This document shows, one piece after another, positions 1,305-45,715 of a stretch of DNA of 64,000 nt (the first letter of the stretch is position 1; every line of letters starts with the position of its first letter). Origin of the DNA: a bacterium (lineage in GTDB: Bacteria; Orphanbacterota; Orphanbacteria; Orphanbacterales; Orphanbacteraceae); contig JALGYY010000009.1 in assembly GCA_025782575.1 (NCBI GenBank), positions 163,512 to 227,511 of the forward strand, written 5' to 3'. The position numbers were made by a program, and so were the translations under genes. The notes under the pieces are model-generated. The model searched no databases and had not been told where the DNA came from. It worked only from the letters and a program-made list of their open reading frames with translations.

Positions 1305-2903
1305 ATGAAAATGCGGAATCACGGGAGCAGTAGAGTGCCGGCCACAGGAACATTTGCCGGCCTCGCGATCCTGGCTCTCCTCGCAGTCGGAGGTTCGTGG
1401 GAGACGGCTGAGGCCCAAACAGTGCCATCCGGCTTCACTACGGAATATGTAGTTCGTGGCCCTCTTACCGGTCAGCCGACCGCGTTCGCCTTTCTTCCCG
1501 ACGGCCGCATGATTTTTGTCGAGTGGAACTCGGGCGTCGTTCGACTCGGCGAAGTAAGTACCAATATTCCGGTCGAAAATGACAGTATTTTCACGGTCCC
1601 CGATGTATTGCATGACGTGGAAAGAGGACTATTGGGCGTTGCCGTGGATCCGGGATTCCCGACCGCCCCCTACATCTACTTCTACCTCACGAGCACGGAC
1701 GGCTTTCACCATGTGAGGCGTTACGAGGCCTCCGGGGATCTGATCGATTCAAGCAGCACCAACCTTGTTCTTTCCGCTCCATATGACATTCTCCTCATCC
1801 CCGATCTGAACGGATCCCATAATGGCGGCACATTGCGGTTCGGTCCGGACGGCATGCTCTATGCGAGCAACGGCGATGATGTTGACAAGTGTAGCTCCGC
1901 CGATATCTCATCTCTGAACGGTAAGATTCTCCGTCTCGATTTATCAGCCCTCCCCGATTCAGGCGGGGGCCCGGTTCCGCCCCATTCTCTGATCGCTCCC
2001 GGTGATAATCCCTTTGTAGGCCTGGGACCGAACGCACAACTGGTATGGGCCTACGGAATGCGAAACCCGTTCCGGTTCTGCATCGATCCACTCACCGGTG
2101 ATCTGGCGATCGGTGATGTCGGGCTGAACACGTGGGAGGAAGTCAACTTCCAGGAGTATATGACCGCCCCCGGGGAGAACTTCGGCTGGCCGTGGTTCGA
2201 AGCGAGCGACCCGCATATCACATGCGACAGTGGTGGAACAAACACACTCCCCGCCTATGCCTATCCTCATATCGAACCGTTCCCGGCCAATATAACGGGG
2301 GGGCCGATCTATCGATCCTTGCCTGGATCGAACCGGACGTTTTCACCCGGCTACGATGGAGACATCTTCTTCATGGATCCGAACTTCGGCTGGATCAGAA
2401 GGCTGAAAAGGACGGGGAACAGCTGGGCAATTGCCGATCCGGTTCCCGGCCAGCCCGACTCTCTTAATTGGGCCACTGATATGGGGTACTTTACTGACAT
2501 CCAGCTCGGGCCCGACGGCGCGATCTACTTCATCAATTTCCTCACCGGGAATCTGAGTCGCGGGATCCACCGGATCGTGAGCGATTATGCAACCGGGGTC
2601 GGGAACGTCGCCGATACCCGCATCGTCTATCCGAGTGTCGCCATCCCCAACCCGGCCCAGGTGGGCGAGGGGACGACAATCCGATATTCGCTGCCAGGGG
2701 GAACGGACGTTTCGATTCAGGTTTTCGACATCACGGGCCGGCTCGTTCGCACGCTCACCCCCGGCCGGGAGAGGGAGAGCGGGGCCGTTTTCTGGGATGG
2801 AAGGACCGACAGGGGAGTCCCTGCTGGGTCCGGGGTCTTCTTCTACCGCCTGGATCCGTCTTCAGGCCCGGCCACCCATGGCCGAATCACCCTCCTACGG
2901 TAG
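1305..2903 (+). CDS. Secreted PQQ-type glucose/sorbosone dehydrogenase-like protein with FlgD-like C-terminal domain
   Basis: 532 aa. An N-terminal signal peptide (hydrophobic stretch around residues 13-30, cleavage likely after AEA) is followed by a six-bladed propeller of the GSDH family (soluble aldose sugar/L-sorbosone dehydrogenase fold, about residues 45-430). Family-like segments include LLGVAVDPGFP, HNGGTLRFGPDGMLY and YGMRNPFRFC. Such enzymes oxidise sugars in the periplasm with PQQ, but the substrate here is unknown. Residues 445-530 form a FlgD-like Ig module (NPAQVGEG, then VFDITGRLVRTL, then GVFFYRL), a C-terminal domain common on exported proteins of FCB-group bacteria. AGGAAG precedes the ATG by four bases. 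It stands alone between two promoter-like regions. Confidence 0.85.
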   Translation: MKMRNHGSSRVPATGTFAGLAILALLAVGGSWETAEAQTVPSGFTTEYVVRGPLTGQPTAFAFLPDGRMIFVEWNSGVVRLGEVSTNIPVENDSIFTVPDVLHDVERGLLGVAVDPGFPTAPYIYFYLTSTDGFHHVRRYEASGDLIDSSSTNLVLSAPYDILLIPDLNGSHNGGTLRFGPDGMLYASNGDDVDKCSSADISSLNGKILRLDLSALPDSGGGPVPPHSLIAPGDNPFVGLGPNAQLVWAYGMRNPFRFCIDPLTGDLAIGDVGLNTWEEVNFQEYMTAPGENFGWPWFEASDPHITCDSGGTNTLPAYAYPHIEPFPANITGGPIYRSLPGSNRTFSPGYDGDIFFMDPNFGWIRRLKRTGNSWAIADPVPGQPDSLNWATDMGYFTDIQLGPDGAIYFINFLTGNLSRGIHRIVSDYATGVGNVADTRIVYPSVAIPNPAQVGEGTTIRYSLPGGTDVSIQVFDITGRLVRTLTPGRERESGAVFWDGRTDRGVPAGSGVFFYRLDPSSGPATHGRITLLR

Positions 2904-44174: not shown

Positions 44175-44265
44175 CGGAAAACCCCCATGGGAGTGGCATC
44201 GATCCGAACGGTGAACGACCACTTAGATGGTATGCAGGGGAGAGCGCATTAGCAAGTGGAAGTAA

Positions 44266-44300
44266 GAAACCCCGAGTGGTGTCGCGCCACCCGGGGTTTC
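44266..44300 (-). terminator. Terminator after the first tailed secreted protein
   Basis: GAAACCCCG-A-GTGG (44266-44279) pairs with CCAC-C-CGGGGTTTC (44287-44300). On the minus strand it runs on into TTTCTTACTTCC. It starts 21 bases after the stop of the gene at 44322. Confidence 0.75.
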
Positions 44301-44321
44301 GTCTATTACAATGCAGCCAAT

Positions 44322-45008
44322 CTAGCGGAACAGGTTCTTGACGCCTCCCCAGCTCGATTCTTCCGTTGCGGTGGGCGGGCATTCACCGAGCCCGTAGTGA
44401 CCGTTGCAGTGGAAGTCGTATCCGGCCGGAATGACGGCGGTGCACCCATTATCGCTCCACGTGGCGTCAATATCACCAGCGCAACCGGGAACGAGACCGA
44501 AGAGCGAGCCGTCAGTCGCGAGCCAATTCGCGAAGAACGTGCCGCCCGGGCAACCCGCACCGAGGTCGACGATGTTTGTCGCCACATCAGACAGTGGGCC
44601 GTGCAGGATCAGCGTGCCGTCGCTGAAGCTCCCCGCGTTGGCGAAGTCAGCCGCGGCGCCTGAGCCGTCATCTTCATATACCCAGAACTCACCACCACTG
44701 TAGCTGGTGAGGTTCAGAGGAAAGGCGTGAATGGAGCCAAGCGATGTCATGTTCCCGAGTACGACCGTGTACTCATTGCCGTTCCCGTTCAGTGCGGCGA
44801 AAGGACCGTTATTGGCGAATCCGATAATAATGCCCCGGACCGTCAAAACGTTTCCTGCCGTCGAGTGATGGGTCCCGGCGTTGTAGTTGGGCTCGCTCGC
44901 CTTTCCGTTCGTCCCCCAATCAATGATAAAATCGACCCCCGCGTACGATGTACCGGCAAAGAGGAAGGGGATCACCAAGAGGGAGAGGCTCTTTACAATT
45001 CGATTCAT
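44322..45008 (-). CDS. Secreted protein with TEESSWGGVKNLFR tail, unknown function
   Basis: 228 aa. Signal peptide (IVKSLSLLVIPFLFAGTSYAG), a beta-rich Gly/Asn-rich mature part without a recognised family (LTVRGIIIGFANNG, EYTVVLGNM, GEFWVYEDDGSGA, DGTLILHGPL), a few Cys near the C-terminus (PGCAGD, NGC, HCNG, ECPP) and a final segment TEESSWGGVKNLFR that is shared with the next protein. It seems to be a paralogue of that protein: both have YEDxG...DGTLIL blocks at matching places. Upstream gene ends 29 bases away. Confidence 0.75.
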   Translation of the reverse strand: MNRIVKSLSLLVIPFLFAGTSYAGVDFIIDWGTNGKASEPNYNAGTHHSTAGNVLTVRGIIIGFANNGPFAALNGNGNEYTVVLGNMTSLGSIHAFPLNLTSYSGGEFWVYEDDGSGAAADFANAGSFSDGTLILHGPLSDVATNIVDLGAGCPGGTFFANWLATDGSLFGLVPGCAGDIDATWSDNGCTAVIPAGYDFHCNGHYGLGECPPTATEESSWGGVKNLFR

Positions 45009-45037
45009 GTCAGCTTCTCCTGAACCTAAGGATTCGG

Positions 45038-45715
45038 TTACTCGTTAAAGAGTTTCTTGATATCGCCCCAGGTGGTTTCCTCTGTCCCGGTAGTAAGCGG
45101 GCAAAGATTCGCCTCACCGTCGATGTCCCAGACGTATCCGGCCGGAACACCGAACGCATCGGTACCGATCACGGAGAACTGGGTCGAGGTGTTTGCCGGC
45201 AGATTGCCGAGCTGCGAACCGGAACTCCAGACGACGCTACCCTGAATCGAACCGTTCAGCGTGTTCAGATCGACCGTGACGACCATGTCCGGCATAATAC
45301 CGCCGAGAATGAGCGTACCATCGACGAACGAGCCGGGAGTGGTCGCGTTCTGCGGGCTTGTGCCATAGTCGAACGCCGTTCCGGCATCTTCATAGATACC
45401 GACAAAGCTGTTCGGCTGGTAGCTGAAAATCCCGAAGTTGAAGACCGTATCCGCCGTTGCCAGGAAGTCCGACAGAACGTAGAACGTGTACTCGTTTCCG
45501 CCCGTGGTGGTGATATAGAGCGGGTTAACGGCGACGATCTCCCCGACGGCTTCATAATAGTTGTTCGGGGCGGCGAAATCACCGCCCGGAACCGGGAACG
45601 TGTAGTCGAAGCCGTTGAGATCCAGCAGGAATTCCGGTGTCGTGCACGTGGCAAATGCGGGCATTGCCACGGCCAGTGCGGCCAGCATTACTGTGCATAC
45701 CGTTAGCAATTTCAA
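45038..45715 (-). CDS. Secreted protein with TEETTWGDIKKLFNE tail, unknown function
   Basis: 225 aa from TTG 45715, with GGAGGGG seven bases ahead. Signal peptide (KLLTVCTVMLAALAVAMPAFA). The mature region is beta-rich (FPVPGGDFAAPNNYYEAVGEI, NEYTFYVLSDF, GIYEDAGTA, DGTLILGGIMPD) and ends in TEETTWGDIKKLFNE. Paralogous to the next gene downstream, with a shared order of motifs. No enzymatic motif recognised. A 16-base perfect palindrome lies 22 bases upstream of the start. Confidence 0.75.
   Translation of the reverse strand: MKLLTVCTVMLAALAVAMPAFATCTTPEFLLDLNGFDYTFPVPGGDFAAPNNYYEAVGEIVAVNPLYITTTGGNEYTFYVLSDFLATADTVFNFGIFSYQPNSFVGIYEDAGTAFDYGTSPQNATTPGSFVDGTLILGGIMPDMVVTVDLNTLNGSIQGSVVWSSGSQLGNLPANTSTQFSVIGTDAFGVPAGYVWDIDGEANLCPLTTGTEETTWGDIKKLFNE

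Follow-up and report, generated by a model that had tools for sequence, protein, structure and literature searches.

A short W-G-x-[VI]-K-x-L-[FY]-R tail as a candidate C-terminal sorting tag of exported proteins in several bacterial phyla

Two adjacent genes for secreted proteins with a common tail

The stretch of DNA analysed here (the window) spans 64,000 nucleotides of contig JALGYY010000009.1 from a bacterium of the phylum Orphanbacterota (assembly GCA_025782575.1). It contains two adjacent minus-strand genes, separated by a gap of 29 bp, whose small protein products each display a clear N-terminal signal peptide and a closely similar C-terminal tail (Table 1). Taken together with comparisons across bacterial genomes, this tail is best read as a new C-terminal sorting tag, distinct both from tags of the PEP-CTERM type, as it has no transmembrane (TM) helix, and from the C-terminal domain (CTD) of the type IX secretion system (T9SS), as it has no folded domain. 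The presence of the tail in both proteins, first reported in the initial annotation, is confirmed by the open reading frames (ORFs) and their translations; that of protein 2 is slightly atypical at its end, with NE in place of R. Directly after protein 1 lies an inverted repeat followed by a T-rich stretch, which, judged from its sequence, is a likely intrinsic terminator of the two-gene unit.

Table 1. Coordinates of the two genes, their tails and the adjoining repeat
Feature	Position in window	Strand	Description
Secreted protein 2	45041..45715 (ORF 45715..45038)	-	225 aa; TTG start at 45715; signal peptide, beta-rich domain of unassigned family, tail; ends ..TGTEETTWGDIKKLFNE
Protein 2 C-terminal tail TEETTWGDIKKLFNE	45041..45085	-	translation; genome pattern match G000:C11:208549-208581
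Secreted protein 1	44325..45008 (ORF 45008..44322)	-	228 aa; ATG start; signal peptide, beta-rich domain, tail; ends ..TATEESSWGGVKNLFR
Protein 1 C-terminal tail TEESSWGGVKNLFR	44325..44366	-	consensus form; translation; genome pattern match G000:C11:207833-207862
Inverted repeat aaaccccgggtgg...ccactcggggtttctt, then T-rich stretch	44263..44301	-	read from sequence

While the shared tail stands, the two proteins are not unrelated: an alignment with 31% identity over 169 aa (E = 4e-9) identifies them as divergent paralogues. Hence, within the window, the common tail could be a matter of plain homology, and the pair alone proves no sorting tag; this doubt is removed by the genome-wide count of tails given below. 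Relatives of both proteins in other genomes are also tagged. Protein 2 has no match in Pfam and none of significance in NCBIfam, and neither protein matches TIGR04183 or any CTD model at E up to 10. The AlphaFold model of the window protein is poor (mean pLDDT 54) and, when used to search the PDB, gave no match with E <= 0.001; on both grounds we discarded a fold assignment.

The tail is a conserved terminal motif

A strict DNA pattern for WGxxKx[LF][FY] followed by a stop codon matched 42 times in the 4.88 Mb genome from which the window derives, corresponding to 37 distinct ORF ends, against none for the reversed pattern used as a control. A looser pattern produced 74 raw matches in this genome, resolving into 54 distinct tag-like ends, against 5 control matches; two further ends, WGKIKSLFRDE and WGDIKKLFSLDH, were confirmed from the ORFs, and the figure of 54 tagged genes is a lower bound. 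Over 167 occurrences, the motif was terminal in 164 and internal in 3. Thus, the tail is neither a peculiarity of two paralogues (at least 54 genes in this genome alone, with carriers in dozens of genomes from several phyla) nor an internal part of a larger domain, these being the two findings that the initial annotation had named as telling against its claim.

The consensus of the tail is W[GS]x[VI]Kx[LM][FY]R, the G of the second position being replaceable by S. Among 161 tails, W and K occur in all 161, G in 160 and L in 152, with F (97) or Y (64) at the eighth position; an Arg is the sole residue after the motif in 147. Ahead of the motif, Glu stands at -4 before the W in 103 of these tails and S or T at -1 in 147. 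The positions W1, V/I4, L7 and F/Y8 together form an amphipathic pattern, with x3 and x6 being free. In the window's genome, W, K and F have an amino-acid entropy of zero, whereas K and F are encoded by varying synonymous codons; residues that are nearly fixed over varying codons point to selection on the protein, and we accordingly rejected a DNA- or RNA-level element. The eighth position differs between lineages (60 F and 2 Y in the window's phylum, 48 F and 76 Y elsewhere), a shift expected if tag and receptor drift together.

Known C-terminal signatures are rare in the tails: among 178, a TM-like stretch of 17 residues was seen in two, a Cys within the last 16 residues in one and an LPXTG motif in one. 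No Pfam or NCBIfam model fits the tail, four tail peptides had no NCBIfam match at E up to 10, and we found neither a database model nor an account of it in the literature searched. Such endings may have been noticed in Eisenbacteria proteins before, although no description of them is known to us. In the window's genome, duplicated tagged lipoprotein-like proteins (L030; G000:C24:26044 and C24:27246) contain two internal tail-like stretches of the form W-T-A-V-K-x-[LV]-F-R-W, and five paralogous small tagged proteins of a VELDLDGxxGNGPD family form a tandem array with a spacing of ~615 bp (L025-L029; G000:C21:223729-226221).

Unrelated exported proteins carry the tail

Across 135 tagged proteins the mean column identity is 6%, with the W, G and K of the tail being invariant, and their recognised domains include beta-helix, lamin-tail (LTD), CHRD, NHL propeller, plastocyanin, cohesin and thioester domains. 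In other settings, cargo domains such as cohesin, lamin-tail, CHRD, NHL, beta-helix and choice-of-anchor are followed by PEP-CTERM, LPXTG or T9SS endings. Several cargo families have NCBI names that record other anchors, namely choice-of-anchor E, W and X, the PEP-CTERM protein ScyF and TQXA; M36 peptidases, which NCBI names as rhombosortase- and myxosortase-dependent, are also among them. A signal-peptide-like start was found in 155 of 211 tagged ORFs versus 175 of 768 untagged ones (p = 2e-41), by a crude rule and with some ORFs having wrong starts. The recognised cargo consists of soluble folds, and a few tagged proteins are lipoprotein-like (L030, L143, L171), for which a pure membrane-anchor role of the tail would be redundant. 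These unrelated domains and the enrichment in signal peptides support the proposal of the initial annotation that the tail serves for sorting or anchoring, lacks a hydrophobic helix and differs from PEP-CTERM and the T9SS CTD, with its function being putative. That the tail is a genuine targeting tag of some kind appears to us quite probable.

Distribution across Bacteria

All seven genomes of the window's small phylum are tagged, with 8-47 matches each. A further 72 genomes from across Bacteria, almost all representing different families, include three that are tag-rich (32, 14 and 27 matches); the remainder show 0-2, which is no more than the reversed control gives. When named genomes were scanned, the tag was recovered in metagenome-assembled genomes labelled, among others, Eisenbacteria, Krumholzibacteriota/Krumholzibacteriia, Latescibacterota, Coatesbacteria and Gemmatimonadetes, with up to 62 tags per genome.

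In Ignavibacteria, Melioribacter, Kapaibacterium and Chlorobiota, the tag sits on one small FnIII-like protein. Homologues of this protein were detected in 61 of 61 genomes of the class Ignavibacteria, with ~59 matches extending into the tail, which is also visible by the ORF filter in 27 of 30 loci examined; across the wider phylum the family is matched in 48 of 118 genomes, with the match extending into the tail in ~40. The body of the protein is 32-52% identical to the first member of the family and its tail is nearly invariant. AlphaFold2 models this Ignavibacteria family with an FnIII-like core of high confidence (above 90 in most blocks), FnIII-type domains being among the Foldseek matches of the model, and with a low-confidence tail in which a short helix covers WGSIKAL on a floppy linker. 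In two Kapaibacterium/Ignavibacteriae loci (L112, L135), two genes come after that of the FnIII-like tagged protein, one for a CTD-ended protein resembling metalloproteases and one for an ABC-type ATPase.

Association with type IX secretion

The tag and the T9SS CTD occur in the same genomes and never on the same protein. A hidden Markov model of the CTD, built from the same loci as the tagged genes, matched 51 ORFs, none of which is tagged. Homologous domains may carry either ending, as with the tagged lamin-tail protein of L087 and its CTD-ended neighbour L087_4077, and likewise the pairs in L103 and L130. The window's genome encodes SprA (G000:C21:304609-308952, 525 bits summed), at least 98 type A CTD matches and 13 PorV-family matches. 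Within the window itself, a 532-aa sugar-dehydrogenase-like protein (1305-2903, plus strand) ends in a FlgD-like T9SS type A domain; both types of ending are therefore present there.

SprA exceeds the cut-off in all 10 tag-rich genomes, compared with 12 of the 61 that are tag-poor (Fisher 1.4e-6, or 0.0027 with the window's phylum treated as a single lineage). Among 31 named carriers, it does so in 26, and strong SprA fragments were found in two more; two of the three SprA-less carriers have 80 and 52 type A CTDs, respectively, and their missing SprA is attributed to incomplete assemblies. Thus, the tag is confined to genomes with T9SS markers with the exception of a single bin with three tags.

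The end of the tag also resembles that of the CTDs from the same loci. The latter have K/R at -6 in 30 of 35 and K/R at -1 in 26 of 35, with hydrophobic residues in between, the corresponding residues of the tag being K at -5 and R at -1; this likeness in a basic-hydrophobic-basic run is suggestive only. The types of T9SS CTD use distinct outer-membrane shuttles (PMC12618676), which makes a further T9SS signal with its own shuttle conceivable.

Comparison with known C-terminal signals

The type A CTD (TIGR04183) is the closest parallel to the tag: it is likewise C-terminal, occurs on many Sec-exported proteins per genome, is swapped among homologous domains, has a basic-hydrophobic-basic end and is present in nearly all tag-bearing genomes tested. 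However, it is an Ig-like domain of ~72-80 residues on large proteins (median 578 aa), as against ~10-14 residues, likely helical, on small ones (median 231 aa). The type B CTD, with its PorP/SprF shuttles, offers a model for the present proposal in having an outer-membrane shuttle specific to its signal (PMC12618676), but is a domain of ~100 residues. The PEP-CTERM, GlyGly-CTERM and MYXO-CTERM tags share with this one their short C-terminal form on dozens of unrelated exported proteins, and even cargo (ScyF, M36, choice-of-anchor), but comprise a signature motif, a TM helix and a basic end, the second of which is nearly always missing here. LPXTG signals of sortases similarly direct C-terminal surface-protein sorting, and a TQXA-type domain is found on one tagged protein; the tag, however, has no TM segment, almost never an LPXTG motif, and hosts of the Gram-negative type. 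The beta-signal by which BAM recognises outer-membrane barrels is also a C-terminal motif with an aromatic residue near its end; in contrast, the tag ends in Arg and its recognised cargo is soluble (propeller, cohesin, plastocyanin and beta-helix), which speaks against barrels, at least among the proteins with a recognised domain.

Proposed mechanism and its alternatives

Based on the above, we propose that the tail would act as a C-terminal sorting tag transferable among Sec-exported proteins. Once such a protein has reached the periplasm, the flexible linker would display the short amphipathic W-G-x-[VI]-K-x-L-[FY]-R end; a common receptor might then bind it, with the protein either crossing the outer membrane or becoming fixed at the cell surface. 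The likeliest receptor would come from the T9SS pathway, i.e., a PorV-type shuttle or the SprA translocon, making the tag a miniature alternative to the ~80-residue CTD. Recognition by a T9SS component is the reading that we favour, at what we judge to be an even chance. Several observations weigh against it. The 12 SprA-positive genomes without tag excess indicate that T9SS is not sufficient for the tag; given the wide occurrence of SprA in this region of the tree, the co-occurrence may reflect shared ancestry; PorV-family copies are equally numerous in T9SS genomes without the tag; and one genome with three tags (G094) has neither SprA nor T9SS CTDs, which we assume is probably due to a mis-binned contig. 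Moreover, when 702 ORFs from 118 loci were clustered, no recurrent unknown neighbour gene emerged, and we know of no precedent for a T9SS signal of 10 residues.

The chief competitor, which we consider unlikely relative to recognition by T9SS but by no means negligible, is that the tag belongs to a separate, so far unknown system with its own receptor, protease or transpeptidase, its co-occurrence with T9SS arising via shared ancestry. All the evidence for the tag itself fits this equally well, as do the many T9SS genomes devoid of the tag and the unlikeness of a short helix to the folded CTD; set against it are the presence of SprA and/or T9SS CTDs in nearly all tag-bearing genomes and the lack of a conserved unknown gene beside the tagged ones. 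More doubtful still is that the tail is no secretion signal but a docking peptide, its amphipathic helix binding a shared scaffold, whether matrix, S-layer or outer-membrane protein, in the manner of dockerin and cohesin. The amphipathic pattern, the low-confidence helix on its flexible linker and the few lipoprotein-like, hence already anchored, tagged proteins would agree with such a role. However, no scaffold candidate was found, nor a link of the single cohesin-bearing tagged protein to one, and the strict C-terminal position with a terminal Arg rather suggests recognition of the end.

A degron, read in the periplasm by a PDZ-type or tail-specific protease for proteolysis or quality control, would call for a short, unfolded and exposed C-terminal end of defined sequence; yet, such a role hardly accounts for the long persistence of the tail on numerous functional exported domains and on one class-wide protein, rendering this reading very improbable. 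The least credible of all is that the tail has no targeting role and is just the shared domain end of one expanded family: this might be entertained for the paralogous pair in the window or the tandem array of five related genes, but is contradicted by the many unrelated families and folds that retain an invariant W, G and K at negligible overall identity.

Returning to the sorting tag, whether its receptor be linked to T9SS or separate, the chances appear evenly poised that the FCB group possesses in this ~10-residue C-terminal peptide a second class of secretion signal, ancient in origin, on which dozens of small surface proteins in each genome rely in several candidate phyla. Earlier C-terminal tags led to new enzymes, namely exosortase, rhombosortase and myxosortase. 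The present tag spans several mostly uncultured phyla, and many proteins now annotated as 'hypothetical' could be identified through it as exported or surface-located. If T9SS does read it, then a 10-residue end could replace a folded domain of 80 residues, changing the view of recognition by this system.

Candidate partners and further observations

The co-occurring protease or sorting factor envisaged in the initial annotation was not identified beside the tagged genes or beside SprA. The SprA neighbourhoods contain LptF/LptG-like, RimP-, NusA-, IF-2- and M28/glutaminyl-cyclase-like genes (named by reading their sequences), none of them specific to tag carriers; together with the clustering of neighbours, this led us to reject a dedicated partner gene beside the tagged genes. 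We also rejected PorV copy number as a discriminator (most tag-rich genomes have 9-17 and most untagged T9SS genomes 6-39) and PorV gene adjacency, which was seen solely in the closely related L143 and L171.

A ~310-aa gene resembling enzymes of the M28/glutaminyl-cyclase type adjoins SprA in several tag-rich genomes outside Bacteroidota (L193-L195, L197, L200, L202, L205); behind the signal peptide, Gln appears to be the first residue of many tagged proteins in the window's genome. The rule of a Gln in this position has been described as specific to Bacteroidetes (PMC5837995); the glutaminyl-cyclase-like gene at SprA and the Gln starts may extend it beyond that group.

Finally, some tagged contigs come from bins with unexpected labels: L157 (JADZDL, Planctomycetota), whose genome has three tags with neither SprA nor a T9SS CTD, L103 (QNAI, Verrucomicrobia) and L087 (DYDD, Fibrobacter). 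These are possibly cases of mis-binning or mislabelling, and the tag could act as a marker of contamination.
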